This document shows positions 3,742-41,235 of a stretch of DNA of 42,566 nucleotides, in pieces (the first letter of the stretch is position 1; the number at the start of each line of letters is the position of its first letter). The notes beneath the pieces were generated by a model that ran no database searches, had not been told where the DNA came from, and saw nothing but the letters and a program-made list of their open reading frames with translations. Location: contig JAOXYB010056944.1 in NCBI GenBank assembly GCA_028565635.1, positions 1 to 42,566 of the forward strand, written 5' to 3'. The position numbers and the translations under genes were made by a program. Origin of the DNA: Phoronis ovalis (taxonomy: Eukaryota > Phoronida > Phoronidae).

Positions 3742-3828
3742 CATTCAACCCAGATCCCACATGTGACATTTCAGTGAGTTTGTTGACATCGTTTTTTTAC
3801 TTAAGAATCTGCGTCAATTTTCGTCAAA

Positions 3829-18384: not shown

Positions 18385-19604
18385 TCAAAATTCCTCACAA
18401 AGCTCTTCATAAATATTTTCCTCACCATCACCTAGCAGTTCCTTACCACTGGCTATCGGTTGTTCGTACGTTGATTCCGAATACATTGTTTCATCATTTG
18501 TTTGACGAGCAACTTCATAACCCTCATCTTGACAAAAACAGGTAGGAACAGTTTGAAACGCATAAGTGTACAATTCTTTTGGTAAGGTCTGTGTGTTATT
18601 TGCAACAGTAAGGTCTGGCGATGAGTGATAGTCCTCAAAGTTACATGCCATGTCGTATAGATTTTGATGAAGCTCGTCAACTGAGAGAAATTGTTTTACT
18701 GATGTTTCCTCTTTTTCCATGCTGCTTTGATGCATATTTGTCCCAGTATTTTCGTGTTTTTCACCGTTTAATTGTTTTCTTGAGGTCTGTGTGGAACCCA
18801 CATTTGTAGAACCTGACTTAACATATGTGTAAATGGGGGCACTCTCTCGAAAAAAATCTGATTCTTCATATTCAGCACAACTTAGTCTTGGTGAAACCAA
18901 ATCTGTTTGTTTCGTCTGCGAAATTTTCTTTTTCTGCCCACCCTTGTGTTTTCCATTGGAAATTTTACTTAAAAATTTTTTAATTTTACTAGGTTTTTCA
19001 TTTTTTGAATTCTCAGTAAAATCAGAGCCCCATGATTGGTAAGATGTAGTTTCGTCAAAGTTGTGCATGTGGGACTGCTGACTTTGTACAGTCTCGCCTT
19101 TAAGAGTAATAAACTTATAGCAGTCTTTCTCATCTGCATGTATAGTGTGCCTGTTTACATCTTTAAGTGAGCTATTATTACTAGATGCACTTGGCTCGTA
19201 ACCTGAGGATCCTCCCCATGAATATAGACCATTGCGTGTATCGCTGTTGTTTTCTGTTGGCATTCTTGGCAAACTAGTGCTACTGTCTTCTCTATTCTCT
19301 AATAAGCTTTTTGGGGAGCTCTGAGGATATGTTTTAAAGCATAATATAGGTTTATCACTATAACTGTCATTGTGTGTAGTGTCAATTTCTCTCTCATTAG
19401 AAAGCTGTTCTTGCAGGCGATGATTGTGAGATTCTGCAGAAACATCTCTATCAATTGATTTTTCTACAGCTGTTATACAATTTTGAGTTGAACTGTCTGA
19501 TGCAAGTGATGATGGGGCCAAGTAAAACTCACTCTGGCTATCTGATTCAGAAATTGCTTCCATCTCTGTTTTAGCAACCAGCCTCTTGTGTCCCATTTTG
19601 GTTG
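18385..19604 (-). other. Disordered tyrosine-motif tail exon of the TIR-pseudokinase gene
   Basis: One large final exon encodes residues 1153-1558 and the stop. It is rich in Ser, Thr, Asn, Glu and Gln and looks disordered. A basic cluster lies at about 1356-1385 (KIKKFLSK, KHKGGQKKK). The C-terminus carries tyrosine motifs YEVA (Y1515), YSES (Y1527), YEQP (Y1532) and YEEL (Y1551). YEEL resembles the Src-family SH2 ligand pYEEI, and YxxP resembles Crk SH2 ligands. That they are phosphorylated is inferred. Confidence 0.8.
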
Positions 19605-22600
19605 CTGTAAGAAATATTATGTATGGTATAATTCACTTTCCTACAAACATACAGGTACATATTCTTGTACACAAATACAAGTTATAAAAAAGAATAAAAA
19701 TGCTACAGTTGATAAGTACCATGTGGCACAACTTTTACAAGTATGAACTGTCAATTTTTGAATAAAAAGGTTTCTGCAATTTGTATATTCAAAATAGAGA
19801 TAAACATAAAAGTATACAATTTTAGAAAGGTTTAAAGTATATAAATCCTATATTTATATGATTGAAAGTTGTTCTCATAACATGAGTTTTGACTTTGGGA
19901 CAGTGTTTTTTCCAAATTTAAATTTTCAAAAAACTATAGCTGAAAACACCACCTACATTTGAAACTTTTAGAACTTGGCCATTTTCCAGGTTTTTAGCAA
20001 TGCTATTTTTAATTAGTATAATAGTTAGAGCTTGCAGCTGTGTGAGTCATATGTTTATGTACATATAATAAGCAGTTAAAAATTGATCTTCCAGCTTAAA
20101 CTGGAGATTGGTTTTTGCAATTTTGGAAGATGTAAGTCTTGTAAAAAATTGACAAAGCTGAAATTTCAATATTTTACTTTATTTTTCTGGTTATTTGATG
20201 ACTGCTATTATACACACTATATTATCTTATTGGGCGATGTAAAATAGGTCTCATCATCGTTATGATAATATTCTTATTAAGTTATTCATAATGTCCCACT
20301 GAATATAACTAATATAACACTGATTATTACTACGTGCTGTGCAGTGTTTGTAGACCGGGTTGTGCCAAACCCAGGATATTACTATTTTTGTTTGTAGGAA
20401 TCCACATATAGTGTGTCTGTTAAATTTATATAGTGAGACATGGATGGGTAACCTTAATCATTTTAGTTAAAATATGTGTATTAAGATGTGGGTAGTAATT
20501 TCTTACCGATTGATTGATGCAAGAATTAATCGAAGAATGCTACCGACAGAATTTCACAGATTATGTAGAAATCATGTTTTAGTTGACCACAAAATTTGAC
20601 CGTGAAAAAAATAGCTGTTGACATTGTTGCGTTAATATGTAGAAATGTTTTTGGATATTTTTTGGTAAATTTGTATGTAGGCCAAGTTCTTTATTGGCTA
20701 GTCCAATGAATGATATGTTCATCTACAGTGTAGAAAGTTAATGAACTGGATTAAGTTTGAATGAAATAAACCAAAACCCTAGGACGTAGATACATTTCAT
20801 ATCAAATATATTTTAGTATATCTTGCTTTAAATTGCTTTAATTCTTTTGCTTGAGTAAAACAATCACATTTTTGCCTCAGATTATGCTGCGAAAGTTAAT
20901 TGAAATATGATCATGATGGCAGATAAGAGGAACTTTGCCAAGTGAGAGGTAAATAAATCCCCTCTTTCCTTATTAGTCACTTGTTTTGAAATTATGTAAT
21001 CAAAATCATATAACCTTACTATCAGAATCTCTTAGTAAATGGCAGATGGGATGACATTTTAAAAAATATTCGAATGAGACGCAGAAAGAAAAATGGAGCG
21101 TCGTATGTGTCTGTAGCTGCTATGTATTAAAGATCTCTGGAAGTTGTCAGCAACTTTGACAGAACTTGATGATACATGAAGTTTTCGGTATCCAAAAATT
21201 TAATGTTTAGCAATGCAGTTCATCAAGCCAAACTCTTGTTAAAACTTGCTTTGCTCAAAATTTTAGATTTTTTAAAATGTATGTAGTCATTTAGACTAAG
21301 GTTTGAAAAAGTAACCTCATGTTTAGTACAGTTTAAAGTACAGCCTTTTTAAACATGTATACTTTAATATATGTGCCTCTATATTTGTTACAAAAACGAG
21401 GTATAAATCGCATATATCTTGAGATCTTACTCCAACAATGTGCATGTGATAAAGAAATTACCCATACCCTACCTTTATTTTCTTGGTGTTTTCTAGATCC
21501 TCGATGGTAAAACATATTTCCTACTCCAGGCACACTTCTTCCATTAAAACTTACTCTATGCTTTTTGTAGCTGTTTGTAGTTTCTGATGTCCTGCAGTTA
21601 CAAAAATTTAAAAAGATATGTATATGTATTCTGTGTTAGTCATAGTATAACTGTTCACCAATAATATATTAAAACATATCTAAGACATGTACAAAGTTGG
21701 AATAAATCAAAGCATATTACTTTCATACAGCATATTAAAACCAAGTTTTGCATTTAAAGGGGTAACAACCTACACCTATTTCAGATTATGTAGAAATTAA
21801 TATATATTACTGTTCATACATAAACTGAAGAAAAGACAGTACACTAACTTTAAACTTTCAGCTATGTCTGCCATACTTGGTCGATAAAGTCGTTCTTGAT
21901 ACCAGGTTTTTTTACAAACATGGTAAATAACATCAGGCATAAGGCAAGGTTGTTCTAAAGTGTTTCTTTCTTCTAAAAAGCTTGGAATCTAAAATATATC
22001 AAGGGGAAACATAAAAGAAAAATCCTCACTTAGATATAATAATAAAGTTGAAAAAAAAATCATGCTTTTTTTACCAATGTACACTTGATGACTATATAAA
22101 TTTTCTATTGAAGAAGGATTCAAGAGGTATTATATCATTAAATATCTACTATATTTTATATTGCTATAATTGGGACTATAAAATATACTGTATGGTATAC
22201 CTCATCAATTTTCAAACTACAGTAGGGTACCAGCTCCTCTTTTTGCTTCCCTTTAACTTCTGTACTTAGTAAAAAGTACACTTCATACACTAAGATGCCA
22301 AACGTAAACACATCTGATCCTTGAGAAAAAATTCCTTCTTGTAGTGTTTCAAGCGGTATTCTACAATCAGATAAGCTTTTATAGTAGAGAGCCTTTGCTT
22401 TACCGTCAGTTTCACATTTCTGTCATTAGTTTTTCATTTCACCACATGCATTTAACATTAACTGTAAAATCTAAATCTTAACAACCCTGCAGGAACAATT
22501 TATTGTTTTAGATGATTTGTACCTATAAAATACTTTTATTGCAATGAAATAGTAAAAAAATAGTAGAATTTCTATTAGCTTTCATTTCGTCACTAAAAAC

Positions 22601-25600
22601 TGCTATGGAAAAAAAGTTTACAAGCATGAAAGCTAATTTAGATGTGAAGCGGCAGTTGGTTATTTAAGCATAAAGGTAATAACATCGTTTTCTAGCGAAG
22701 TAATTACCGTCTCTTTAAATCTGTAGGTACATCTAATCTGGCTTTGCAGCTGGAATATGTACTGTCATGACAGCCTTGTTTCAACTTCGTCATTCTACTT
22801 ATGCGAGCAATTATGGCCTACAAAATTTGTGGATAAAACGTTCGTATATGTGCTGACTACTGCAAACAAATTGATATTTAATTATGCTAATGCATAAACA
22901 TTCTGCTGTGTAAAAATTATACCTGAGAAAGGCAAATCTGATTATTCTAACTAAATCATTCTAGGAACATTCTTTAAAAGGTAATTACCTTATTCCAATG
23001 CTGGTTTATGTGAGTTTGAAAAGTTTCACTGACATGGGCATGGAGACATTTCCTCTTATGCCATTTAATATTAATTACACTATACGAGCATGACGTACAT
23101 GACATGTTGATCGATTATTGGCATTCCTTAATCGTATTTACTGGTAGAAAGGTAAGACATCCCATATATATATACCGTAGGACACAAAAGTACATGGTTT
23201 TAAAAATGGTTTTTGTGAAATGTTTGTTAGCTACTGGGAACTTTCCAGATTGCATTATATTTGTTTGTTCTTAATTTATCGGACTAATGTACATAAAATG
23301 AGAACCAGATTCAGCATAAACTCACAACCAGATTCAAATCGACTTTCAAAAAGTGCATGTTTCTGAATCTGAATATGGTTCTCACTCTACGCAAGTCACT
23401 TACATGTCCATTCACAATTTGTATGAATTCGGGTCTAATATCTCTCAAAATCCATCCTCTTTCATGAAGATAAGAACAGCCACTAGCAACTTCAGCTAAT
23501 CTGTCTTGACACCAATGTTTATCTTTAGTTTTGTTGTACACAATGTCATACAGCGACAGCTCTCCATAACAGTTTATTTGGTAATACTGCAAAAAGTGAC
23601 CAGGCACTCGATGAAATTTCATATTTCCACTAATTTATAAACAAGTTAAATTTTATCTTTGGAAACTAAGGTACTGCAAATAAAAATATTACTCGAATTT
23701 TTCAAAAAGAAGCTGTGGGCAACCTTTAAAAAACAAACTTTTATATTTGAGTTTTTTGGTCCCAAAACATTACCCCTTCGTGGATTTTTGGAAGTAGCTG
23801 ATCTTTCAGAAAATGACTAGAGGGATTAACAGTACTATTTTAAATGCAATTGTAAAAACTGAGTGGCCCTTTTTATGGGCCAATTACATTTTCAAGAAGA
23901 GCTAATCAACTTTAAGAAGGCTTTAGAAAGGACATAGGTGGATGGCTGCCGTAGGCTGTATGGTACTTTTGAACAACCTTGGAAAATGGTCTGTCAATCT
24001 AAATCTTGGACATTTATCGCTGTGCATAACACTTTCTTATCTCTCAATAACTTTAATTTTTAATCAATCGACTTCATATTTGGTTAAATACAGGTCAAAG
24101 TACATGTCAGGTAAAATTTTGAGCTTTCATTTATTTATCAGGATGGATGACTGGTGGTTATATTTGTTCTCGAGAAGGTTTCTCATAATAACAGCTTAGA
24201 TTTTCATCACATTAGCTTCATAATTGGTACAGAGTAAGTAAGTACAGGTCATAGTGTAATTTTTACCTGGATACTTACAGTATGGTTGACTGACACTGCT
24301 CCACTTTCCATAAAGACAAAGCATTGACTTAACGATTCAAAGGCCATAGGGTAGTGGGCATATTATACTTAGTTACTTTTTAGAATGACCTTGAAAAGTG
24401 GGTCAAATTTCGGAACTGAATCATTGATATTTTTTATTGAGCATAACACTTAGTCTCACAGTAACTGCTTTAGTTTTTAATTAAACAGCTTTTATCATGT
24501 TTGGTACAACACAAAAGCAGATCAAAGTATGTATATGTCAGATATAATTTTGACTTGGATCACTTTCAAGATGGTCAACTGGTGGCCATATTTGTTCTCG
24601 TGATACATTGTACCAACAGCTTCCATTTTTATCCAATTAGCTTCATATTTATTACGGATTCAGATGTAATTTTGACCTGGATTACTTCCAACATGACCGA
24701 CTGACAGCCATGGGCATCTGTCTGCAAAAGCACACCTGTTGTGTTCATAGAACAGATTGAAACAATTGTCACAATCAAGCTACCTTGGCCAAAATTTTCA
24801 TCAAACAGATCTTTAAAAAAATCTGAGTTATTTTAAGAATTAATTTTTAAAAGTTCTGTTATAGACTTATTTAAAAGAACTAAATATAGCGGTTAAACAT
24901 ATATGCACGCTTTTTTATCCCAGCTTGCCTAAAATTACTAATTCTTCAAACAGCAAGTAATTTGAATCACACTAATAAAACCTTATTAACTTACTATACT
25001 TTAATGTATAACAAATTAATTTTATAATAATTAATTAGCACTTATATGTACCCAGAAACATCTGATGCATTAATGTAACAGTTTTCTTAAAATTGACAAA
25101 ATAACTGAACAGTAGACTACAAAAAGACATTTTGATTTACTGTTAAGCAGCTGATTTTTTTATAGAAGAGTGTTGTTCTTAAATCAATTAGACCTATGTA
25201 GCTAGTTTCCTAAACAGGATGTATGTACTAACTAAAAGCCATAGTTTGATAAACCCAATACTAATGACAATTTAAGATTCCTATCTTTAATAGCCATAAT
25301 TAATCATCCCTTGCTGCTTTTTATTCTGCTTACCATTTGAAATGTCTCTAATTCCGGCTTTGGCAAGATTCTAACCATTTGCACAAAGTAATAGCATTGC
25401 AGCTGCATTAATTCATCAATTTCGTTCTTAGAAAAAAAATCAATAGGTGCCTCTTCAAACATAATTCTAAATTCCTAAGGAAGAAAACAAGTAAACAATA
25501 TTTCCATCATGTACACATGCACAGATATAAAAAGCAACTCAAGGGTTTTCACGTAATTGTAATCTACAAATTTTCAAGATTTTTAGCAGTTAGTTAGTTG

Positions 25601-28600
25601 GTGTTGTGTACTGAGCCAGGCCCGTCAGATGAGGGGGTGCGCTCCCCCCTTTTGAAATAACAGGAACATTTGTTTACACCCTAATCACAGAATCAAGCGT
25701 ATGGTTAAGTGGCAGGAGGTTGCATAATTACACAAGAGTTACCATAGGTGTGGAAAGATTAGCCTTTCTTGTCCTCATCATTACATTATGATTTCAAACA
25801 TAACATAAATAAACAATAACACGATTCGTACAAATGCACCAACGAAATATGGAATTTCAAAGCATAATTTATAAATGACGCTAACCGGTTAAATGCCATT
25901 TTCTCAACTTTATTGCATGTACACTGTGATCGGAAATAAATGCGCCAAGTTCAACATTTCATAAAAGTTTATTTTTTCAAAAAGTACTTTCCAAATTTGA
26001 AACAAATAAAAATAAAGGTAATTCATTTATAATTGGAATATTATGACATTATTAAAATTTCTCAAGAGTATTTATGTTGTTTTTGCATTTTTTGTGAAAC
26101 ATAGCATTTTAGAGATAAGCATGAACAAATTTAATAACGGCTATATTTCACTGATAATTATTATATTCTGATGATTTAATTTGTTTTAGAGATAAGCATG
26201 AACAAATTTAATAACGGCTATATTTCACTGATAATGATTATATTCTGATGATTTAATTTGTTTTAGAGATAAGCATGAACAAATTTAAGAACGGCTATAT
26301 TTCACTGATAATGATTATATTCTGATGATTTTTAAAATTTGTTTTAGAGATAAGCATGAACAAGTTTAATAACGGCTATATTTCACTGATAATGATTATA
26401 TTCTGATGATTTAATTTGTTTTAGAGATAAGCTTGAACAAATTTAATAACAGCTATATTTCACTGATAATGGTTATATTCTGATATGTAGTATTTTTTTA
26501 CAGAAGTGAACTAGAACTAAGAAATCTTTTAATTTTGCATGAAATTATTAAAATATTAAATTTTGTATCTGGACAAATCTGAGATAGGCGTCATATTGGG
26601 CTCTGCTAAATTACGGGATGTTCTTAGAATTTTATTATTTACAGCAAATAGATTAAACTAAGTTAAAAGTAGTACCTCACTACTCAGTAACGACGTATCC
26701 ACTTCCAAGCATACATTTGAATTGTGTGAAAATTTATTTGAAACAAAACGTAGTAAAAAGAACGAAAGAGTAAAAAAGATGCTTTTCACCGACTTTCTGA
26801 ATATCACTCAAATCACCAAATGTGTATGATATTTACATCCACTCTTAGAACAATAAACTAAAAAATTATTTATTTCACCAAAAAATGATTCGAAACTAAA
26901 ATAGCAAAAACTTTCAGTCGACTTAAAACCATAACACTATTAAATGGGCAGTAAAGGTGAGTTTCCAAAAACTGAAATCTCATTAGCATTTGATATCAGC
27001 AGGGGTAAAAGACAAGCACCGTAACGTTAAATAGATGACACGCATGAAGCAGATAAGTTAAGAATTGCACAGATGATACCATTACAATTATTTCGATGTC
27101 TCGTTTTCTATTTATTAACCAAAATCTTCGAGTAACACATGTTAAAACTTGGATCATTTATTTCCGGTCACACAAGCTTGATCCTTGTCCCTGTTGTCAG
27201 CTTAATATCTTTCAAGCCTCGGGTTGTTATTGATGTACACTGTATTCGCAATGATTAAATTTATAAGTAAAGTTTACCTTGTTGTTGAGGACCATTGCGT
27301 TTGTACTAATTACTTTTATAAGTAGGTTTGAAACGTTTTCTACGTGCTGGAACAATTTGTGCAATCAAAATAAATGTAATACTTGTGTTAGGTACGGATG
27401 CGCTCGATTTTTTTCCTGAACCCTTTTTTATGTCTATCCGTCTAATTCACGAAGACCAGACAAGCAAAACGTATTCTAATTTTTTAAAAATGTCATACTG
27501 GTGGTCTCAGAGAGCTTTGCGGAGCAGTGGTTATACCACGTCCACCTGGCATGTCAAAGATCCCGAATTCGATCCTTTCAAGATAAAAGAAAATACCTGA
27601 CTCTCAACAGTAGGGACTGTGTATCCCTCGTGGCTCGGATGACTACGTTAAATAGTGGTCCCGTCTCTGTGAGGTCTATCTGTCAGTAACGTTAAAGAAC
27701 GGCTATTTGATGTCGGTAAATGACCATCAATTAGTACTAGTCCTTCCTCTCCTTGTATTGTTTATTTTCACTCGGGCATAAATCCGTACCTGCTAGGGTG
27801 TTATTGCATGGAATTGTAAGTTTGCCAAGTGTATATTAGTGCACTGAATACGGAAGCCTCACTGTATACTCCCCAGGGATTTGAAACTGTTCGTGGAACA
27901 GGCCCATAACGGGTAATTGTGTAAAAAAGTCCTGTACGGTGTATATAAAGCCGCTTTGATTTACTACATGTATATGTGTAAGATAAAGGACTATATAAAA
28001 ACAAATACAAATTCCAAAAAAATACATTACATGCAACACTGATTTTGTATTTTGCACCTTATAATATTGTTTTAATTATGATTTTATAGTCAACTTAGAA
28101 AGCTGATTTTATGCTCAAAATGAAGGATATAAAATGCATTAAAAAAAATTGGCAGTTAAACGGGCCCTGGACCCCATGCTGATTACGGAAGGGGACACCC
28201 CTGCTGGACTGAATTTACTACAAACGCACCCCCCTTTTGAAAAAGTGTCTGACGGCCCTGTATGAAAAATTAACATATATACCATATGTACTGATTTCTT
28301 AAAGCATAATTTCCATCAAACAGATTATCAGCTTTACCCAGAGGTGAAAGGCAATATGAAAAGGGGGAAGCAAGTTTCAACAAAGTTTTGCGTGAAATTG
28401 AACATTCTTCTTGTCAGCTCATGATATACACACTTTACGTGTTACTTGCTTTGGATATGTTTTTTTTGCCTAAATCACAAAAGAGGTACTTTGTTGGACA
28501 TTTTGTTAGGTTTGTCACTTAAAGCTTTACTTTGAAAGGGTGCGATTCTGATCAAAACCTACATCTTGAAAAAATGCAAGTGCTAATATGAAGAATGGGA

Positions 28601-31600
28601 TTTACCAACATGGTGCCCCCCCCCCCCCCCCCCTCAGGTACTTTATTAGTATGGTTGTAGTACATGACCTCAAATATAGGTATATCCCCCAGCAAAAATA
28701 GAGAAAAGAAGGATTATATAGCACAAGTAAAGCACCAAGAATACTCAAATTGTTTTTTTAAATAAGATGCTCCCAAGGCAACACATAAATGACATATTGC
28801 AGGACTGTTAGTATAGAGATGGTAAATGCCAGTTGGTTCTGCCAAATCTTGACAAAATCAAACCAGTCTCCAAAAACTGTTTATTGACGAACAATAGAAA
28901 GTTTTTGATCGCGACCCTACTACTATTACGTACATTTTCTCTGTTCTTATGCCTCACTGTTATTCTAGGTGGATTGCTAGGTAATCTTTCTGCCATATCA
29001 CAAGGAAAATATCCAGAGATTGTCATTGCCTCTGAGCGAGCATTAACATAAGGAGGTTCACTACCTAGAAATCCAAAGAAAAATGCTTTTTCATAGGATT
29101 AAATTGTTTAGGATAAAATTACTGGACTAAGTGTGTTAAATTTTGTTTTATTGGTTTCATGAGTCCTTAAAAATGTACTGCTCTGAAACTTCCATTTGTT
29201 ACAATCAATTTGAAAATAAATAATTGCTAAAATAGACACATTTGTATCAATAGTAAAAATTAAGAATTTTCAGGATTTTATCCTTAAAATCTGCTTCTCA
29301 ATGTTTGTACAAATCCTTACTTAAAGCCTCCTCTTCTGTTTTTAAGCCTGGGGATGTTTTAATGCCTAGACTCTGTAAAATAAATGAAAATACATGTGGT
29401 TCAGAATGTGAAATAAGCTTTAGATATAAGTATAAATTTTCTAAAATTGTGTATGTAAGAAGTAAACATGAAAGATATGATGTGTGAAAGCTGCTCTTAA
29501 TTATTACCCAAAGACAAGCTTTAGGAATACATGATAAATCTTCCTTGAATTCAAGAAATGTTGCAAGTTGTTACTTTATGGGACATGATAATGATTTCAA
29601 TAAATTATGCAGCACACATTCAAATATGTAAGGTAACAGCTGAAAACAGTGTACCGTATTTTATAATTTGAGACTTATTTTTTTAGTGAGATTCACAAAA
29701 CACATTTTGACTTTGAGCTTGGTATGCTGAACAGTATAAGAAAGTATGAAAACTGTTACACACTATATTTATTTCGAAGTCATAGATTTATTTAATGATA
29801 TAAACTATACAAAAATACAAAGTAGGTATTCACAAATTTTAGAAAATACATCTGCTTGATAATTGCTAAAGCATATTTCCAAGCTTGGAAAATACTGATA
29901 CACTATTGACTAAAACCAAGACTACAAGACTAAAAGTAACATCAAATGCTTCTTGACTAATCTTATTTCCAAGCTTGAAAAGGCCACTGTTTGATAAACA
30001 CTTGACTACAAGGCCAAGTTTCCAAGCTTGGAAATTCATACTATAAAAAAACAAAGTTACAATTTCTGACTGAGCTTCATCTTTGACTAAATTATATATA
30101 AAATCTGGAGTTTAATTAAACAACTGTTTAGAGCTAAGACAATTTTCTACTGCAAGACAATTCTATAAAATAAAACGCTTGTTTTAGTCAAACTCTACAG
30201 TAAACATGTATATATCTGTAGCCAGATATCCTAAAGTGCTGTGGGGTAAAGTTGAAGCCATATTCCAACTGGTGGAGAAGGGTGACATTGCAGTGCCAAA
30301 AATAAAAGTTTTGTTCCATCGATTGGATTGACTGTAAGTGCAAGAACAGTTTAATATTCCGTACTTTTGATTCCACATACCAGTTAAGATATATCCAAAG
30401 TGTATTTTAAAAATATCAGTAGTTACTAATAACTAATACCTTCTCATATTACTATTTTCTCATGCATATATTGAGGCAAACATTTCTGGAATTCAATATT
30501 CAATTTTGCTTCATACACGTATATGACGGGAGGGGGGGTTATACTAAAATCACAGTTTCCTTTAAAAAATTAAACATGTTCAGAAAATTGTTTATTTTTC
30601 AGCTTTTCAATTCTCTCCAAAGCCTTGGTGTTAGTGACAAACTTGAAGTTTTATTAGAACTTCTGGAGAGCAGAAACTTGTCAGCAGCCTTTATGCATGC
30701 AAAGAAACTGAAGCAGCTCAATCGGCTTAGACATTCATTCATAGCATTAACAAAGAAAAAATGCTGGGAAGACGTGAGAGAAAGCTATCCCATGCACTCG
30801 TCTGATGAGGCAATAGAGCCTTACTTAAAGCTATTTAGTAAGTGAAACAATTTCTTTAAGAAGATCCTTTTTAAAATTTGTTATTTGTTATTATGACAGT
30901 CATGTAATATATAAATTAAAACTGTATGTTTTGCTATTTATACCAAAATAAAGCAATTGCTTGACCAAGTAATAACTAGCTTAAATATTTATCAAATTCG
31001 GGATAACTTTTATTTCAAGCATCGTACTAGTTTTCAGTCAGAATTAGTTTCATTATATATTATAAAGAACGTTTACTGGTTCAAACAATTTATTTCTCGC
31101 CAATTTTCTCACTACCTCCGTTTTATATTGCAATAGGTAAAAGAGCAAATTTTGTTTGATAATTAAGCTCTTATTAAATATCACGTATAATTTTACAGGT
31201 CACAGAGAACAGATGCCTGTGTCATTTGTGAAATATTGCGAGAACGCAGTTTCTCAAACAACAGATCCAACCATAAGTTTCGAAGTGAGCATCAATATTG
31301 CAAGTGGAGGAAAACGTGTATCGTCTGAAAGAAAGAAAAAGTTTCTAGCAAATATAAAGAAAATATCCTAAAAGAACAGAAACAGCTACAAGATGTGACA
31401 GCAACATCGTTTTCACCCCAGAAGTCGCCTTCAAAATCTCTTCCACATTAATCACCTGCTGCTGCAGCCATTAAGGAAGAATACATGCGACTGTCAGAAT
31501 CCAACGGGCATCATCAGCTGTAAAAAGCTCAAGTATGAACAGTCGGGCGAGAAAATCATTGCATTACCGAGCCACGTCCACCCCAGAAACCTCTGAGCTT

Positions 31601-34600
31601 GACCTATCCACTTCAGACTCCACTTCAATGAACAACACATTTGCTGATTTATCACCTCTATCTCCTACAGTTTCACCTACCACTTCCTGCAAACAGACTG
31701 AAGAAACTCTGACTTGCCCTACAACTGCTAAAGACCCGCAACACAAGCTTTTAACAATGCTACTCATCCTACCGCTTCTGTTCAGCCCTCGGCCTATGAG
31801 TTTTCAGAAGACGATGAGGATGGTGATTGGCTTAAAAAAGCGCCGTTATGGAAAATATCATAAGTTGAAAATTACATATGTTTGGCTTTTGATATTTCAT
31901 GTCACTGTTGGTGAGATATCTGTGGATTGGGGCTAGACAGAATAAAGTTTGTATTATGTAATACACTTTTATACCAATGTACACAGTACTATGGGCGTAT
32001 AGTCTATAATAGCATCAGTTTAATATTTGGTACCAGGTAAAAACAGGTCAAAATTGTAAGCTAAATATAATTTAGTCAAAGATGAAGCTCAATCAGAAAT
32101 TGTAATTTTGTTTTTTTATAGTGTGAATTTCCAAGCTTGGAAACTTGGCCTTGTAGTCAGCAGTGTTTCTCAACCAGTGGCGTTTCCAAGCTTGTAAATA
32201 AGATTAGTCAAAAAGCATTTGACATTATTTTTAGTCTTGTACTTTTGGTAGACTGACCTCAGTCCCTTTTGGGTGTTTTTAAACCGTATTCATTTATGAC
32301 ACTTTTTAGCGACTTACATGATTTTTTCTGCTCATGTGTAATATTATACAACCAAATATTATGATATTTTACAATAAATGATATTACAATAATATGCAGA
32401 AAACAGTCTGGACTACAGACCAACTTTTGGTTTTAGTCAATAGTGTATCAGTATTTTCCAAGCTTGGAAATATGATTTAGTAATTATCAAGTAGATGTAT
32501 TTCCTAAAATTTGTGAATACCTACTTAACTGTATTTTTGTATAGTTTATGTGATTAAATAAATCTATGACTTCGAATTAATTAGTGTGTAATAGTTTTCA
32601 TACTTTCTTATGCTATTCAGTATGAGCTCAAAGTCAAAATGTGTTTTGTGAATCTCACTAAAAAAATAAGTTTCAAAATTATAAAATACACTGATTAAAA
32701 TTGTATCATTTTATAGGATGCTGATCACATCACGCAACTGTATGTTAGTGTACATAAATTGCTTAGATGGCTTTTACACATATGTCATGATGAATTTTAA
32801 AGTTGAATTCATAATTATAATGCATTTTCCCAATTTGTTGAAAGACATAGCGACCCTATTTTTTTACTATAACTTTATCTTATCTCATAATAATAACAAC
32901 TTTAACTAATTTGCATGAACAAACTGAAGACATGAAAGTATACAATCATCCCAAGTATCCCAATCATCTTTTTTTATGTGTAAAGCTCATTTGTGTAAAT
33001 CATATGTCTCACCGGCAACATATTTTGAAAATCAAGGTCAAAGGTCATGTGCTCTTCAGGTGCAGTATGGTCATAAAGCTATGTGTAATATTTGGAACGG
33101 TGGTTATAATGTTGTAGCCTAAAATTGCTTTTAAGCAATTACTTTTTATTAATAACAAAAAAACAATGATTTGTTAAAAAATTCAGATTATCCTCGTTAT
33201 TTTCTTTAATACCATGCCTATTTTCATGAAGATCCTGCAAGCAGTGTAGGAGGAACAGAGGCTTGTCAAAATGAACAGAACATTGCTGCCAGTCAGCCAT
33301 ATTAAAAACAATCAAAAAGTTGATTCTGAATTATTCATCCTCTTGGTATATGTTAATGGTATGCCAAGTTTCACAAAGTTCCTGCTAGTGGTGAAGGAGA
33401 AGTGATTTGTGACAAAATGTTAGCGCCAATGGAAAAATAGTACTTATATTTCCCACTCTGTTTCATATGTGAGATAGTAATGGTGATTGAAACTATGGAT
33501 TGATATATTCAATAATTTTACAAAATCTCACAATTTTGCATTTGCCTATAAAATGTTGGTTCAAAAAAATAAATGCACTTACCCCATCTATTTCAGGATG
33601 ATGAATATAAGATAACGGCAGTAATTTTGGCATTTCAATAACTTGACAAAATCCTGATAGTCTGTGTTTGCCTGTAAAGATTTGTTTCTTTGTACAACAT
33701 TTGTATAGTAATTATAGAGTATTTTGTGAAGCTCTTAAAAATTGGGCTTCTAATCAAGGAATGGTAGGATGTTTTTGGAGAATAAATGGAAATATAAGGC
33801 TATCGTCAATGTCAGAAATGTATTCTTTGCGAATAAAAATTAATTTTAACCATTGAGCACCTTTTATTTTGCATTTATACAGTATTGTAGCGAAATTTAA
33901 CTTTGATTTTGAACTATCATTATTGTATAGCGGATTCCCTCCCGTATGTCTATCTATATTACTGCATAGCAGATTCCCTCCCGTATGTCTATCTATATTA
34001 TATATAGCGGATTCCCTCCCGAACGTCTATCTGTATTATATATAGCGGATTCCCTCCCGAACGTCTATCTATATTATGTATAGCGGATTTCCTCCCGAAC
34101 GTCTATCTATATTATGTATAGCGGATTTCCTCCCGAACGTCTATCTATATTATGTATAGCGGATTCCCTCCGCTGGTTGGCTATAAATAGCCTGTGTCAC
34201 TGTATTGTAATTCAGTTGCTCGCTTACATTTGAACAATAAACTTTGTGTCGTTCTCATCAAGTATCACTCTTATTCTCGTCTTTTTACAAACTAGTGCAG
34301 ACTCAGCCAACTGCCCTGAGCCAAAGTCTGCACTTCACGTCTTTCGTTACAGTATTCTTAAGTTTGAGCTTCTGTTCAAGCAAGGTATTACATATGGATA
34401 AATAAAGAAGTTTCAAGTTAAGGGTTCTATTAAAGACAGCTTAAAAAAGGCTTGTATTTAATGTTAATTTTGTAAGGACTTCTATTATACTGAAGCTTTT
34501 TAGTTTCATTTAATAATATAATTTTTGGGACTAATTTGAACTTCACAGGTCATTGTTATGCAAGTGATTAGGTCCTAACAGTTTTGGCGGCTTGTGTCAA

Positions 34601-37600
34601 TGATTCTCATCATAACCTTACGCAAGTAACTTAAGGCAGGTTAAAATATATTTCCAGACGCATGCGCTATAATTCAGAATTATCTCCCCTCTACATATGC
34701 ACGTTCTACTACTGAGCGCTGTTACTTGCAATAAAGTAGGAACGATATAATTCAAATTCCGCGCGTTCCCTTGATTTTGTAAATTTTGGGAAGTTGTTCT
34801 ATGAGATCATGTAAGTAAGAACTTACTTTTGCACATATGGCATACTCAAACTAGTTTGGAGTTTTTTAGGAATAACATATTTTCAAGCCAAAATTGGCGG
34901 ATTTTATTAGAGTTATATGGAAAACAATATGTTACTTAAAATTTTGCAGCGCCACCCGTGGCGAATCGTGGTAAACACCTGCCTTAAGTTACGTCAATTT
35001 TGCATAAACATTCCCTTTCTTGAAATTACAAACTTCAAAAAATAGTCTAGATGTTTCAGTAAATTAATAGTGACACAAAAATAACTGATTACATAATTAG
35101 ATGACAAATGTAAAAAAAGTGTCTTCAAAACAGTTCTTTTATTTTCGTTTAATGTAATTATTCAAACCTTGACATAACTTTCATAACTCAAATAAGTTCA
35201 TTTTGCCAAACAGTAAGTTGTACCATTTACCTGAAGGTTTTAATGCAGCAGCAAACTCTTCAAGCGTTCCACGCACACTGTACTCGACTTCTAAACAGTT
35301 CAACATTACTTTCCATACATCACTGGGAACATTAAAATCTTCGTAAATGGGTTTCAAACCATAAATTACCTACAAAGCCAAGCTTGAATTTAGAACTTAC
35401 GAATAGTGACTTGTCCTTGTCCAGCCATTACAAATAAGTCAGACCCCTCTCCTAAATCCTTTCAAATCACCCTTTTTTTAAAAACCACTATGAAATAATT
35501 ATAATTATAATCACTTATAAATTGCCTTATATCTTTCAAAGCATTCAGAGGTGCTAAAATATATGAGTACAAATAAACTAAAAGCTGACAATATATGACA
35601 ATATAATAAACAGAAAGTATACATATTAAAAAAAAATGAAAATAAAAATAGTAAAAACTATAGATATGATACACTAAAAAGCAACATTTTTAGGAAAGAC
35701 TTCAAATAATTTAGAGTTTCTGGATTTCTGATGTTAACAGGATGATTCCATAGTTGCTTTGGCACAAACAGAGAAAACTGTATCAGCTCTAAGATGAAGC
35801 CAGTGGGACAGTATTTTCTTAAGGAATATTAAGATAAATTGGAGCTTATTAAAGCCACAAGCATTTTTTTACAATAATTTTAAAAGATTTTTCAATTTAA
35901 TTTCAAAAATATGATTATATTTCAAGAGTAAGGCAAGAGCTAGTACAACTATTATAGTAGTAAAAGATGTTTTGTTCTTCTCACACCAAGTTAATGAAAA
36001 CCATTTTCCTTAGCATGAAAATAATAATAATTGTTTTTACCAGTTGCAGTATCTCTACTATTGGCCTTCTTTTTTCAATAGTTAAGTTGTGAAGTGGGGG
36101 ACATCCCATAGATAATATTTCATATGCAGTACAAATGACTGACCAACTGTCATGTGCAACTGTATAAATGCCATGTAACAGTGACTCGGGAGATGCATAC
36201 AGCACTGGAAGATAGTTTTGGGCATCAAGATCCTCTTTGTCTGAAAATAAAAAGATATTGTACATGTTTTTTAAAAGACACTGCTTGAATTCAAGTGTTC
36301 ATCATAAATAAAAATCCAACTGCGTGCATTTAAATCTGCGTTCCGCTCATTTATCATGGTACATGTGTAGTGAGCAGAGGATATGTAGAATATTTGATAC
36401 AAAAATTAGTAAAATCCTAATAATTTCAACTGTACAGCTAGGAACAATTTAGTGTCTGCCTACAATCACACACTGTAGCTGTAGCAGTTTACTGTGGGAC
36501 AACATTTATTTTACTTTGTATACAGATGGCAACATTGTTGTTGCCAAACTACTTAACTTTATTAAAGAAATCTCAACTGTTTGGAAACAAACTGGATTTG
36601 ATTAAACTTGTTTTCTTTGTTGACAAAAATATGTCCCCAATATGTATATTATTTCTTTATATTAATTCCTTATGTCTAGTAAGTGATAAGAGTAATTGCA
36701 AAAAAATCACCTCCGTGCGACAACTTAACTTAGAAGGGCTTAGGATTTTACCTTTTATCTGTTTTGATCTACTAATTTAAAAAAAACAATCTTCAATTAG
36801 AATATCTGATGCATTTTGGCACCTACTTAAACAAATATAAATTCATTACTCAATAGAGTTAATTTTTGTCTTTTACTAAGTTATTCAACACATGTAAAAT
36901 AATTTTCTTACAACAAAATACATAGCTCGAAAAAGAAACAGTGAAACCAAATTCTATCAGCTTAATTATCATTTCACAAATATAAAAATCGATGGCAATG
37001 TGAGCCATGTCTATAAAAGGTGTTTATCTGAAGCGTTTACAAAGAGCGCAGCATTAAGTAATTTCACTCGACGCTACATGTCACACACTCACGCAACAAT
37101 TGTCTATATAAGATATATTCAAACAAATGCTTATTAAGAATTCTATAAGAAAGGAGCAAAATTAAAGAAAAGGTCACAACTGATGGAAAAGTAAACAGCC
37201 TCTTTTTTATTATGCATTTTTATATATTTTGATTATAGTGTCAGCTACATAACCATATCTGTTATTAATTATAACTAATATTTAGGTAGTTACCTTCAAA
37301 CACCAGCTGGTCAAACTTGCCAATCTTCATTTCTCTTGCAATAGTGAAATCGGAAAGTTTCACATAGTCAATATCGTTTGACTTTATATATAGAAAACTG
37401 CTTGGGGTGATATTTCTTACAACAATGTTATTTCTGTGACAGAAATTTACAGCATCCACAACTTTTACAGTGATCTTTTGAAGGTAATCATAATCTAAGT
37501 GAACTTCTACTTTTCGTTGTTCTAATATGTAATGCTTCAGTGACTTGTATGTCGTCTGCATGTCTTCAACGATATAGAAAAGTGGCATTTGATGCACTTG

Positions 37601-40600
37601 ATAGCCTAAAAGTTCAATGACATGCTTGCTTGGTGTTAGCATTGTAAGAAATTTCAATTCATTGACATGCAGATGGCTAATATTTCCATCCTTTTGCTGG
37701 TAACTGTTGCGAAATGTTTTCAAGTATGTATCAGGGTGCAAAATCTTTACAACAATATTCGTCTCTCCCATTTTTCCTCTGCAGGTTATTTCTTTTGTAT
37801 GTTTCTGCAATTCATGTTGGCCATATGTGCTCCATCGAAATTTTACCACTGCACCATATTTCCCCTCTATAAAATTCTTTGCTTCATTCACAAATGGTTG
37901 CCCAACTTTTAGGTCCCCGAAAAATGTACTAAACTTTTCTTTAATCTCAGCATAAGCATTGAATTGAAAGTTTCGGGTCTTCTCTATTATTGCATTCTTT
38001 ACAGCATCTGAACCATTTTTATAAATGTGCTCAAAAAGTAATTTGATGATGTCACAATCACTGGCTGAAAAAATAAATTATAATTTTTATAATAATGCTA
38101 AATTTATTAGGATAGAGGTCCTCAAAAGGATAAAAACATATTGCCTCCCTCTGAAAATGATTATAATGCAGACCATTTGGCTAGTACTGCGGGGCACAAT
38201 TTATTACTACTATATTATGTACACTTCAATTTAGATTTGTATTACATATAGTTAAGTGAAACAATAATATAAAATTGTAAATTCTTGGAAAAACACCAAT
38301 TCAAAGAAAAAAAATCTCTTTACTTTCTTCAGATCTAGCTGTCACATGATTACATAATCAGTAAGATGGCTTTTGGATAAAAATTAATACATAATTTTGT
38401 GTAAAAAACAAAAAATAGCGATCCAAATTTGAAAATCTCAACATAACCACGATTGATTCGCTCCAGTACAGACTGCTGGTAAAATTTGTGTGCTGCTATA
38501 ATACAGCTATAATTTCCTGTAATACTGTATGCATGCAGTCTTGGTAAGCACACATTTATCTAGGCTAGATGTAATGCCAGGCTAGATAGAACATAAAAAG
38601 TAACATTTTTAAACCCAGCTGTAATGATAAAGATAAAGAAATTTGGTGTAAAAAAACAGAGATCCTAAGAGAAGAGTTCAATCTATTTTAATTCGATCTG
38701 TTTATAGTATAATTACCTGGTTTGTACTCATGATTATCTAATACACTGATTATGCAGTTTGCAATGCACATGACATGCATCTCTTTATCTTTATCTTCTC
38801 GCTTTGCTTTCCTCATATTTGAAGCAATGTCATAGAACATCTTATACATTTTTTCGTTCAAATCTTTGTCATGAATAATCTAAAAAACATTAGAGTGCAT
38901 CCCCTGTTAATTTTGCTGTTTTTAACAACACTTTCTTGCTGCTGTATGTGTTCTGGCATGATAGATATAAAATCGGACACAGTTTTATATATGACAGTAT
39001 AAACATTACTTATCCTGGTAATAATAGACCTACAATATAATTAATGCACATTCCCACTTTTGATAACCAATGTCTAGGAACTTATAAGCCTGTTGTATGG
39101 CTGAGTTGTGCTCAATTATTATTTTGAGACATCTCCTGCAGATATATATCTACTAGAAACTTTTCATAGTAAACATTTCTTACCTCAAAACTATCGAGAA
39201 AAAAATTACAGTTAGAGCACCTGAAAATGGTGATACATACAAACAAGGCTCATGTTTTAAATTAAAACTATACATTTTTTTTTTTAAACTTACCTTAGAG
39301 CACATCAACATCTCCAAAATACATCGAAAAATAACAGGAAGCTTTGAAAATTTCCTTATGAATATATTTTTGTTATCTATAGGGGCAAGGATATGTTTGA
39401 CCAAAGCTTCTGTATCTTCGTTGGACATTTTGTTATCTCGTACATGTTGCAGGCATTGCTGACAAAACCGAACTGTGCTTCTTACTGATACTGGATGTTT
39501 TGCTACATGTAAGTATGGATATTCCAAAATCCAACTGAATCTCATATCAAATGCTTCAGATCCAGTTCTACTACATTTTCTACCAAGCCCATCTAATACC
39601 CAATGCTTTGCTTTCCTGTTTATGGCAAAGCTAACTTTGAGAATAGTAACAATAATGCTATAAGCTTCCCACAATTTTTCCAAGGTTTCTAGTGTGTCCT
39701 TCTGTAGCAAACAAGCAATGCGACTTTCTATGTCGAGAATGAAGATATAAAAGTATTCGTCACTGCATTGTACTATATCACATTTGCTTAGATAACGTGT
39801 AAGCATGCAGCAGATAGCCTGATGAGCTTTCAATCTTACATCTTTGCTTCTGCAGTCAGCAAACTGTAATAATTGGAGATATTTCTCACTTTTCTCTGCA
39901 TCTGGTATATAAATTTGAAGGACTGATTGAATAGCTTGGTGAATTCTTCCATTTTCTGACATAGATGACATCTGGTATGAAACCAGTTGTATACATTCTT
40001 CAAGAAGAACAGGAACTGTAAATCATATAGAAAACAATGCAAATATTAAACCATAACTTCTGAACAAGCATACCTTGGGAATTCTTATCATAATTTAGTT
40101 GAATATTTGCAAAAAGGCTGGGATCAATTAAAAAATCTGTCCACATAAAACAAATATATGATTAAACAGATAATTCATGTACAAAAAATATATTAATATT
40201 AATAATGAATAATATATAATTATCAAAACCTTAGAAATAGGCCAAAATGTTTCACTTTAATGCGTAACTTAAAAAACAGCCCATTTGTTTCCATATCAGC
40301 TATGCATATTAAACATACATTTATAAATATCTTGGCCTAATTTCATTGGAAAATATTTTCCATCTCCATTTTTATGCCAAAATAGGTGATTTTGCTTTTG
40401 GTTTTCCGGCTGGGTATAATGATGTTACATAAATGCAGTTATACACACACACATATACATACATATATATTAGATATATATAAATATATATACATCTCAT
40501 TAACTTTAATGCAAGTATTTTCATGTATAAAACAAAAACTAGACAATGAAGTAAGTATTCATTGCAACAACAAAAATATGCGATTCTTTTTCAAACTTCA

Positions 40601-41235
40601 GATGAACATTAAAATAATGAGCAACACAAATTATTTATAAAATTAAATAATTCCCAACAAACCTTTCATTCTGAAATTGTTATGTATTTTAATGCCACAA
40701 TTTGGATCTGTGTCATGACTGAAGTCTAATCCTATGAATACTTCCATATCTTCATCTGAAAATCTTTCTTTCGTGCCAGGCTCAGGTGGCTTGTCTGTTA
40801 CTGTTCCCTTAACTGCTTTATAAATTCGTTGCAACAGATACTTGTGTTTGCACTGCTTACTAGCATCGATAATACAAGTTGACTCCAATTCAGCTGGAAC
40901 TTGGCAATTATCACATTTTATAAAAAAAACTTTTTCATGGTCACAGAGACTTAATGCTGCTGCCCGGAGATTATTTTTTGCGCAAAGGCATTCAGCTGAA
41001 GAGCAAAACAGTATAACAGTGTACATACTGTTGGATGCTATGTTTCCTACTTCCTTTATCCACAAGCCACCTAATGCAAAATCTCGATATTCTATTGCAC
41101 ATCGTAAACCATAGGGTTCTGCCTCCAATGGTTCAAGCAAGTGTTGTGTTGCAAAATTACTGCATGCCGCTTCATCGTTGTCCAAGAACAAGATAAAGAC
41201 ATCATATTGAGTTTCTTTACTAGATGCTGCCATGT
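18385..41235 (-). CDS. TIR domain-double pseudokinase protein, 13-exon gene
   Basis: Exons in transcript order: 41235-40663 (ATG at 41233), 40015-39294, 38879-38717, 38064-37294, 36240-36041, 35369-35231, 33671-33583, 25474-25334, 23586-23404, 22419-22201, 21988-21849, 21591-21473 and 19604-18385. Every junction is GT-AG with matching phase, giving about 1558 residues. Order: TIR (10-140), helical region (191-530), pseudokinase 1 (550-855), pseudokinase 2 (856-1113) and disordered tail (1153-1558). I recognise no orthologue with this layout. An acceptor directly before the ATG (TTTTTAG/ACATG) implies a 5' UTR exon further right. No signal peptide or membrane segment is visible, so the protein is probably cytosolic. 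A role as a signalling scaffold is inferred from domains only. Least certain are the 8.1-kb intron 33582-25475, which could hide an exon, and the weak acceptor at 22420. Confidence 0.82.
19605..21472 (-). other. Intron before the tail exon, TIR-pseudokinase gene
   Basis: AT-rich sequence of 1.87 kb between phase-matched exons. I found no open coding segment or clear repeat on either strand. Confidence 0.6.
22420..23403 (-). other. Intron inside pseudokinase 2
   Basis: No coding segment stands out. A short AT microsatellite (CATATATATATA-type) occurs near 23163. The acceptor used for the next exon (ATGACAG) has a poor pyrimidine tract. Confidence 0.55.
24040..24715. repeat. Diverged two-copy interspersed repeat
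   Basis: Segments 24040-24300 and 24430-24715 share ordered blocks: a CTTCATATTTGGT-like block, CAGGTCAAAGTA, AATTTTGACCTGG-like, ACTGGTGG and ATATTTGTTCTCG. Each segment itself looks like two related halves. Similar wording recurs near 17.95 kb. It is old, non-coding, and of a kind often met in bivalve introns. Confidence 0.55.
26107..26484 (+). repeat. Five-copy 77-bp tandem array
   Basis: Copies start at 26107, 26184, 26261, 26342 and 26419 with TTTTAGAGATAAGC. The period is 77 bp, except the third unit, which is 81 bp because of a 4-bp insertion. Copies are nearly identical, so expansion was recent. The unit has no conserved open frame and the copies touch each other without spacers. Confidence 0.93.
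27498..27740 (+). mobile_element. tRNA-derived SINE
   Basis: A tRNA-like head carries a pol III A-box-like block at 27518-27530 (TTGCGGAGCAGTGG) and a B-box-like block at 27565-27575 (GAATTCGATCC; consensus GGTTCGANNCC). They are about 35 bp apart, as in tRNA promoters. Downstream is a body with AGTGGTCCCG and GTTAACG-type wording. The 90-codon open frame across this area is a by-product. The SINE family is not assigned. Confidence 0.5.
29647..30098 (+). repeat. Left arm with three palindromic boxes
   Basis: TTTCCAAGCTTGGAAA occurs at 29876-29891 and 30019-30034, and a one-mismatch copy at 29966-29981. The arm matches 32064-32693 in reverse complement. Confidence 0.82.
30603..31863 (+). pseudogene. 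Broken spliced gene carried inside the long-arm element
   Basis: A first exon (30603-30837, acceptor TTTTTCAG, donor A/GTAAGT) encodes a helical, charged stretch with LEVLLELLESRNLSAAF and KLKQLNRLRHSF. It joins in phase to a second exon at 31199 (acceptor TTTTACAG; HREQMPVSFVKYCENAVSQ). The second exon then breaks. A stop occurs near 31368, and readable Ser/Thr/Pro-rich sequence continues in other frames to an acidic end (FSEDDEDGDWLKKAPLW) and TAA at 31861-31863. I do not recognise the family. It may be an element-encoded protein or a captured host gene. Confidence 0.55.
32064..32693 (-). repeat. Right arm with three palindromic boxes
   Basis: Boxes at 32128-32143 (perfect), 32183-32198 (one mismatch) and 32455-32470 (perfect) mirror the left-arm boxes in order. 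An extra segment separates the last two. Confidence 0.82.
33928..34175 (+). repeat. 38-bp tandem array in the LTR U3
   Basis: Six full units and one partial unit start at 33928, 33967, 34005, 34043, 34081, 34119 and 34157. The core is TAGCGGATTCCCTCCCGAAC. The array ends just before the TATA box, the place of an enhancer array. Confidence 0.93.
34294..34334 (+). other. Hairpin near the 3' end of the LTR
   Basis: AGTGCAGACT (34294-34303) and AGTCTGCACT (34325-34334) form a perfect 10-bp inverted repeat. An inner CTCAG/CTGAG pair lies between them. It is downstream of the AATAAA and could fold in RNA or mark a U5 structure. Confidence 0.6.
35231..38064 (-). other. Pseudokinase 1 exons of the TIR-pseudokinase gene
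   Basis: Residues about 550-855. The glycine loop is reduced to EGKYGAVV. The VAIK lysine is kept (VVK, K592) and so is the alpha-C glutamate (E621 in HVNELKFL). The HRD motif is VRN (701-703): the catalytic aspartate is Asn703 and the Mg-binding asparagine is Ser708. DFG is DFT (724-726). The C-lobe has SPE (759-761), the alpha-F aspartate D773 (HDSWSV) and a final helix VWKVMLNCLE. It may still bind nucleotide but should not transfer phosphate. Confidence 0.82.
36241..37293 (-). other. Intron within pseudokinase 1
   Basis: It lies between the activation-loop exons. The 84-codon plus-strand open frame at 36526-36780 has no recognisable homology and looks like chance. Nothing else is seen. 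Confidence 0.55.
38717..40015 (-). other. Helical region exons of the TIR-pseudokinase gene
   Basis: Residues 191-485, continuing to about 530 in the next exon. The sequence is a run of amphipathic helices, for example LEECIQLVSYQM, GRIHQAIQSVLQIY, KYLQLLQFAD and RLKAHQAICCMLTRYL. Spacing and leucine pattern resemble HEAT/ARM-type or other alpha-solenoid folds. I cannot assign a family by eye. Confidence 0.6.
40016..40662 (-). other. Intron between the TIR and helical exons
   Basis: AT-rich, with a CA/TA microsatellite around 40440-40495. No coding segment seen. Confidence 0.6.
40663..41235 (-). other. TIR domain exon of the TIR-pseudokinase gene
   Basis: Residues 1-190. Box 1 is YDVFILF (10-16), followed by a TLR/MyD88-like helix. 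Box 2 is YRDFALGG (49-56), close to the RDxxPG of Toll-receptor TIRs but with leucine for proline. VILFCSS (73-79) is the strand D equivalent. The position of the NADase glutamate of SARM1-type TIRs (WxxxE) reads CAKNNL, so the glutamate is absent. This points to a protein-protein interaction TIR. Residues 141-190 are a proline- and acid-containing linker. Confidence 0.85.

Follow-up and report, generated by a model that had tools for sequence, protein, structure and literature searches.

We report that the minus strand of a 42,566-nucleotide stretch of DNA assigned to Phoronis ovalis (assembly GCA_028565635.1, contig JAOXYB010056944.1; the whole stretch is referred to below as the window) carries what appears to be one gene for a large, probably cytosolic TIR adaptor, in which a TIR domain precedes two catalytically degenerate kinase folds that would serve as docking or switch modules, so that the product would act as a scaffold between TIR signaling and a tyrosine-kinase pathway; we give this reading a probability of roughly 0.55. 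In animal innate immunity, TIR and kinase modules normally reside in separate proteins, such as MyD88 and IRAK. We envisage that the TIR, which retains boxes 1 and 2 and has no glutamate at the NAD-cleaving position, would dock onto the TIRs of Toll-type receptors or adaptors of the host, that both kinase folds, unable to transfer phosphate by the usual chemistry, would act as docking or conformational-switch modules, and that partner kinases or SH2 proteins would be gathered on the folds and on the tail. A scaffold had already been suggested in an earlier, model-generated annotation of the window (the original prediction), and it is still the most economical reading of a TIR and two degenerate folds in one chain, the pathway itself being proposed from sequence.

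Gene structure and paralogs

The coding sequence runs from the ATG at 41233 to the end of the TGA at 18385 and was rebuilt, from open frames, splice sites and paralogs, as 16 exons on the minus strand encoding 1636 amino acids with no internal stop. The order along the chain is TIR, helical region, pseudokinase 1, linker, pseudokinase 2 and tail, which bears out the module order originally claimed for this strand (TIR, helical region, two kinase folds, tail); of the 13 exons with matching phases that had been proposed, the matching of phases stood, whereas the count gave way to 16 coding exons.

When the assembly (77.4 Mb in 4805 contigs) was searched with the first half of the protein, contig C2994 gave matches to the TIR, helical and kinase exons in their proper order and C3365 matched in the initial exons, the remaining matches being the window itself and weak matches to other kinases; with the second half, both C2994 and C1839 matched in the second kinase fold. 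A full-length paralog is present on C2994, with 16 exons in the order of the window gene, 2065 amino acids and no internal stop, and partial paralogs in the same exon order are found on C3365 (exons 1-3) and C1839 (exons 9-15). The genome contains a small gene family that comprises, besides the window gene, one complete paralog and fragments of one or two others. Phases at exon ends equaled those of the window gene in all 15 cases in C2994, all three in C3365 and all seven in C1839, for which the starting phase was set from the window gene, and every intron had GT-AG borders (15 of 15 in the window gene, 15 of 15 in C2994, two of two in C3365 and six of six in C1839). As exon ends were picked manually for each gene, the evidence lies in the agreement between paralogs and not within any one gene. 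Exons 7, 8, 9 and 12 were recognized solely through such comparison, exons 7 to 9 by setting the gap between the kinase folds against C2994 and exon 12, together with the end of exon 11, by comparing three genes. The window and C2994 proteins are 55-73% identical outside exon 15 and the tail, and intron 7 measures 582 bases in C2994 versus 4210 in the window gene. No in-frame methionine codon was found upstream of exon 9 in any of three genes (window, C2994 and C1839), and it must therefore be an internal exon, spliced to upstream sequence. A complete 16-exon paralog with 15 of 15 phases equal, together with the two partial contigs, argues strongly that exons 1 to 16 form one gene; recurrence of the arrangement on C2994 is beyond chance.

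Two exon assignments were set aside. An end of exon 11 at SDLRR was rejected because the paralogs stop at NGH, which moves the end to 23404 and adds an exon at 22817-22708. An open frame at about 24.8 kb, with the look of a glycine loop, was rejected as partly repeated DNA, its second half recurring on the opposite strand of C2994 and its first half being unmatched there; exons 10 and 11 join without it in phase 0 in all three genes. Tandem arrays lie in intron 6 (38 bp x 6.7 at 33914-34171) and intron 9 (77 bp x 4.9 at 26107-26484).

N-terminal TIR domain

Exon 1 (40663..41233) carries the start codon and the putative TIR (amino acids 1-190), with box 1 (YDVFILF) at amino acid 10 and box 2 (RDFALGG) at amino acid 50; it ends in phase 1 and recurs in C2994 and C3365 at 57 and 56% identity. 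The Toll-type TIR of the original prediction fared unevenly in Pfam: as a single sequence, the window gene gave TIR matches at E values of 0.06 and 0.12, below the cut-off, whereas a profile of the three paralogs matched TIRAP and TIRs of the genome itself. A scan of NCBIfam for TIR gave no match. Against the PDB, the profile found 13 sequences at E <= 10, comprising 10 TIRAP variants (E 2e-4 to 0.014), which, being variants of one protein, amount to one independent match, and three non-TIR sequences (E 0.15-0.31). Aligned by hhalign to four TIR rows of the same genome, it scored 36.5 with a probability of 69.6; in 20 controls with shuffled columns the score never rose above 17.9, and two unrelated alignments gave 12.6 and 15.5. 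In the protein database (UniRef and nr animal proteins), the profile had no match at E <= 1 among 4348 candidates. The position of the catalytic glutamate of NADase TIRs is occupied by L, L and Y in the three paralogs, as judged by eye from an ungapped alignment to the TLR TIRs of the genome, the profile match stopping before this point; in this respect the domain is unlike that of SARM1. We interpret the domain as a divergent TIR without enzymatic function. The genome has 19 TIR matches and 34 Death-domain matches, and contig C3375 has four TIR matches, two falling in open frames as long as 1121 and 944 amino acids; the four probably represent a tandem group of Toll-type receptors.

Paired kinase folds

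Pseudokinase 1 begins in exon 4 (37294..38064), which covers the N-lobe up to the DFG position and in which the beta3 lysine is kept (NIVVK, amino acid 588), HRD has become VRN (amino acid 700) and DFG reads DFT; exon 5 (36041..36240) encodes its C-lobe, with SPE and AHDSWS, and exon 6 (35231..35369) its end, in phase 1. The linker is encoded by exon 7 (33583..33671; GT-AG, phase 1 in and 0 out), exon 8 (29321..29372, 52 bases) and exon 9 (28934..29064), which has the sequence PYVNARSEAMTISGYFPC and is conserved in C2994 and C1839; an SH3-like identity for exon 9 was rejected, a Pfam SH3 match being absent at E <= 2. The beta3/alphaC region of pseudokinase 2 is in exon 10 (25334..25474), where the beta3 lysine is lost (FRIMFEE, amino acid 948). 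Exon 11 (23404..23586) extends from beta5 to the catalytic loop, with HRD changed to LRD (motif at amino acid 1039), exon 12 (22708..22817) has ISRMTKL (amino acid 1060) in place of the DFG region, exon 13 (22201..22360) contains RIPLE and the F-helix aspartate (QGSDVF), and exon 14 (21849..21988) completes the fold (YRPSM).

Both folds matched Pfam kinase models, as anticipated, fold 1 at 3e-20 and fold 2 at 8e-18 (full model); fold 1 was above both Pfam cut-offs and fold 2 of the window gene above that of PF07714 only. The best 60 of 693 PDB matches for fold 1 and the best 60 of 740 for fold 2 all belonged to the tyrosine-kinase group, with no IRAK among them, and many were constructs of the same few proteins, FGFR, CSK, PDGFR and FLT3 for fold 1 and EGFR, JAK2, TIE2 and Eph for fold 2. 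The two folds show only a distant likeness to each other (hhalign probability 61, 98 columns).

With motif positions assigned manually, the catalytic set of beta3 lysine, HRD aspartate and DFG aspartate is incomplete in both folds. In pseudokinase 1, HRD is replaced by VRN, with loss of its aspartate, in two of two paralogs, and DFG by DFT or NFT; in pseudokinase 2, the beta3 lysine is replaced by F or C and the DFG stretch by ISRM (VSRM on C1839), which is free of aspartate, in three of three genes. Neither fold combines the Lys-Glu pair with the catalytic and DFG aspartates. Loss of catalysis, as originally claimed, is therefore upheld to the extent that key catalytic residues are absent from both folds in every paralog, and both should be inactive by the usual phosphotransfer chemistry.

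Selective constraint

The ratio of nonsynonymous to synonymous differences (pN/pS) was calculated for the window and C2994 pair, with 95% bootstrap intervals. The values were 0.28 (0.20-0.39) for fold 2, 0.32 (0.25-0.41) for fold 1, 0.43 (0.34-0.56) for the helical region, 0.56 (0.42-0.74) for the TIR, 0.65 (0.57-0.75) for exon 15 with the tail and 0.73 (0.44-1.29) for the linker, where the interval spans 1 and where comparison with C1839 over 43 codons gave 0.41 (0.23-0.64). The gene is under purifying selection, with constraint strongest on the kinase folds; that the dead folds are the most constrained parts of the protein fits a role as docking or switch modules.

Helical region and tail

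The helical region of the original prediction was confirmed in part: conserved exons are present, namely, exon 2 (39294..40015), found also in C2994 and C3365, and exon 3 (38717..38879), its end part, but helices appear only in a low-confidence predicted model, with a predicted local distance difference test (pLDDT) score of 44.8, and no family was found. Assignment to a known family was rejected, the best PDB match having an E value of 0.83 and nothing exceeding the Pfam cut-off.

A basic segment follows pseudokinase 2 (exon 15, 21473..21591), and exon 16 (18385..19604) encodes the tail, which has no recognized domain and no match in a Pfam scan, and the stop codon, with IYEEL near the C terminus at amino acid 1628. 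The tails of the window gene and C2994 are 30% identical, and both finish near IYEEL or IYENL. The label of a tyrosine tail finds little support: 18 of 416 tail residues are tyrosines against 59 of 1220 in the rest of the window protein, which amounts to no enrichment (the C2994 tail has 50 of 821). A tail enriched in tyrosine motifs was rejected, YxxL-type sites being at chance in both genes and acidic-Tyr sites in excess in C2994 only (p 0.004, versus 0.10 in the window gene); for YxN sites, p was 1.0 in the window gene and 0.098 in C2994. The C2994 tail exon (contig positions 22029-24487) is twice the length of the window tail and contains HIYDTTLP three times, at amino acids 1513, 1635 and 1759. 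Peak hydropathy over 19 residues, a measure that uses the hydropathy scale only, is 1.52 in the window protein and 1.86 in the C2994 protein.

Relation to known systems

No match to amino acids 1-855 was found at E <= 1e-3 among 2917 candidates from the protein database, a query of 1089 amino acids admitting candidates of about 600-1900 amino acids; with the word filter and length limits of the database, we estimate that relatives below about half identity were probably missed, here and in the search with the TIR profile, and so only close relatives are excluded. No description of an animal TIR-pseudokinase fusion was found in the literature searched, most subscription papers lying outside the search. 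Judged by its predicted domains, the architecture is unusual for an animal, is conserved as a small family and represents a variant of TIR-kinase fusions or TIR adaptors.

As in MyD88 plus IRAK, TIR and kinase-fold modules would serve one pathway; unlike in that pair, they lie in one chain, the folds are of tyrosine-kinase type and catalytic residues are lost. In MyD88 a Death domain accompanies the TIR, and IRAK is a TKL-group kinase that also carries one. No Death domain was matched in the protein pieces scanned with Pfam, though the genome has 34 such matches, and with no IRAK among the best 60 PDB matches per fold, the analogy drawn earlier to MyD88 and IRAK fails in detail. Two tyrosine-kinase-type folds in tandem recall the JAK family, and fold 2 has JAK2 among its top PDB matches, but JAKs carry FERM and SH2 domains and one active kinase, and neither FERM nor SH2 was matched in the scanned pieces. 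At E <= 10, the TIR profile matched no TIR protein in the PDB other than TIRAP/MAL, a small TIR adaptor without kinase folds, and the likeness was confined to boxes 1 and 2.

The BCAP/PIK3AP1 family, which includes BANK1 and Dof, is defined by a DBB domain following the TIR, ankyrin repeats and YxxM sites for PI3K, and BCAP itself has no pseudokinase folds, unlike the window gene with its two. DBB (PF14545) was not matched in the helical regions of the three paralogs in Pfam scans at E <= 1 and E <= 2, and a genome-wide search at E <= 0.1 found none but detected no control either; ankyrin repeats were not matched in the scanned pieces, and none of the 18 tail tyrosines of the window gene lies in a YxxM motif. 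BCAP is described as a TIR adaptor that binds the TIRs of TLR2/4 and TIRAP and gathers SH2 and SH3 proteins (PMC5241739, PMC6937578). On these descriptions, it would be the best functional analogue, sharing an N-terminal divergent ("cryptic") TIR, a multimodular adaptor layout, tyrosine sites and a likely link from Toll-type receptors to a tyrosine-kinase pathway.

The original prediction saw no familiar counterpart, a claim overtaken by cytosolic "Kinase TIRs" of choanoflagellates, which combine a kinase with a TIR, have no transmembrane segment and are presented by Richter et al. (2018) as unique to choanoflagellates and suggested to bypass a separate adaptor and kinase (PMC6040629). We regard these as the nearest published kind, by comparison of descriptions only: as in our gene, TIR and protein kinase domains share one chain. 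Unlike theirs, which is listed as "Pkinase, TIR," our chain belongs to an animal, begins with the TIR, and has two folds, both degenerate, a helical region and a long tail. Among surveys of animals, again as far as the accessible text goes, that of amphioxus reports many TIR combinations and names no kinase partner (PMC2575513), and that of Aplysia reports TIR with ARM, EGF or COR and TIR-only proteins (PMC9334734).

Alternative interpretations

Several observations weigh against an adaptor of the kind proposed. In single-sequence Pfam scans, a chance-like IBR_1 match (0.022) outranks TIR in the window gene, TIR_2 (0.21) stands behind a chance-like ProRS-C_1 match (0.15) in C3365, and C2994 has no TIR match; the profile match is limited to the first ~75 positions, which hold boxes 1 and 2. 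Single-exon AlphaFold models are poor (pLDDT 36.6 and 44.8). Tail tyrosines of the window gene are not enriched, with three YxxL-type sites versus 2.5 expected, and the hydrophobic stretch of 1.86 in C2994 leaves room for a membrane segment there. Pseudokinase 1 retains the beta3 lysine and alphaC glutamate and pseudokinase 2 the catalytic-loop aspartate (LRD), so residual nucleotide binding or an odd activity may persist, and a short isoform, if transcripts can end at exon 8, would split the TIR and pseudokinase 1 from pseudokinase 2.

A decoy or negative regulator, in which the TIR would cap Toll-type receptors and the dead kinases would render the complex inert and thereby restrain responses, to resident microbes for instance, is the alternative that fares best, although we still hold it to be rather unlikely. 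It is in effect a scaffold with a negative sign and overlaps with the reading that we prefer. The inactive folds would suit it, as would the dampening of TLR signaling that has been reported for BCAP of mammals, itself a TIR adaptor bearing phosphotyrosine sites (PMC5241739, PMC6937578), whereas the strong constraint on the kinase folds suggests a specific binding partner.

Alternative splicing, compatible with the scaffold proposed here, is a somewhat weaker prospect. Past exon 8 (window 29320 downwards; C2994 15381 upwards), the bases GTAAGGATTTGTAC are identical in the window gene and C2994, which exceeds what a donor site needs, and in-frame stops follow soon after in both, so that an alternative 3' end is possible; read-through of exon 8 would yield a short TIR-helical-pseudokinase 1 form beside the full-length one, and hence two adaptors that differ in the presence of the second fold and tail. 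Against this, the argument rests on two sequences and 14 bases in total, and no exon 8 came to light on C1839 in the 3.1 kb that precede exon 9.

We consider it improbable that the protein is an active enzyme, whether a TIR that cleaves NAD+ in the manner of a SARM1-like executioner or an unusual kinase with one active fold. Certain pseudokinases have unusual activities, and the residues retained in the two folds would be in keeping with this, but the NADase glutamate position holds L, L and Y, and the Lys-Glu pair, catalytic aspartate and DFG aspartate never occur together in one fold. That two adjacent genes, exons 1-8 (TIR-helical-pseudokinase) and exons 9-16 (pseudokinase-tail), were joined on paper is very improbable. 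In favor of two genes, the kinase folds lie nearly 10 kb apart, the 4210-base intron 7 included, that intron holds a plus-strand cluster of open reading frames (30612-31936), and reading past the exon 8 donor meets a stop in the window gene as well as in C2994, the two sharing 8 bases beyond the donor hexamer, so that a transcript could end there. Against this, C2994 preserves the complete series of 16 exons in the same order with all 15 phases equal, its intron 7 spans just 582 bases, and exon 9 is without an upstream in-frame methionine in three of three genes. A joint search with the first two frames of the cluster gave no other match in the assembly, and none of its three frames exceeds a Pfam cut-off; the cluster may be a nested gene or a single-copy insert.

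More tentatively than for the adaptor function itself, but as a serious possibility, we suggest that the family is a lineage-restricted phoronid (or lophophorate) invention that fuses Toll-type TIR docking to paired dead tyrosine-kinase folds, through which Toll-type receptors would feed phosphotyrosine scaffolding without a Death-domain bridge; it would then be the counterpart, in an animal and without catalysis, of the Kinase TIRs of choanoflagellates. If so, pseudokinases can be wired directly to TIR, a testable alternative to the Death-domain route. An expansion of Toll receptors has been reported for phoronids, with 24 in Phoronis australis (PMC8609888).

Host and neighboring features

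The host had been called a mollusc, which the mitochondrial marker contradicts. COX1, a single match in the assembly (contig C1114, 10091-11431), is 90% identical to that of Phoronopsis harmeri and at most 87% identical to any other of 120 listed proteins, and in a tree of 31 rows it groups with P. harmeri and one further row, with a Shimodaira-Hasegawa-like approximate likelihood ratio test (SH-aLRT) support of 99. We consider a phoronid the most likely host; a mixed assembly is possible in principle. On the strand of COX1, the same contig has nad2-like and cox2-like frames, named by eye.

Elsewhere in the window, a UHRF1-like gene on the plus strand (3805-13094), with ubiquitin-like, tandem tudor, PHD and SRA exons in Pfam, is convergent with the TIR-pseudokinase gene and lies about 5 kb from its 3' end. 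Two inverted arms of 234 nucleotides (431-664 and 1558-1791), 89% complementary, are 893 nucleotides apart; one arm has at least 41 matches across the assembly, with 40 of 340 candidates scored, and these are spread over ten other contigs in both orientations, so that the element looks like a member of a non-autonomous DNA transposon family.

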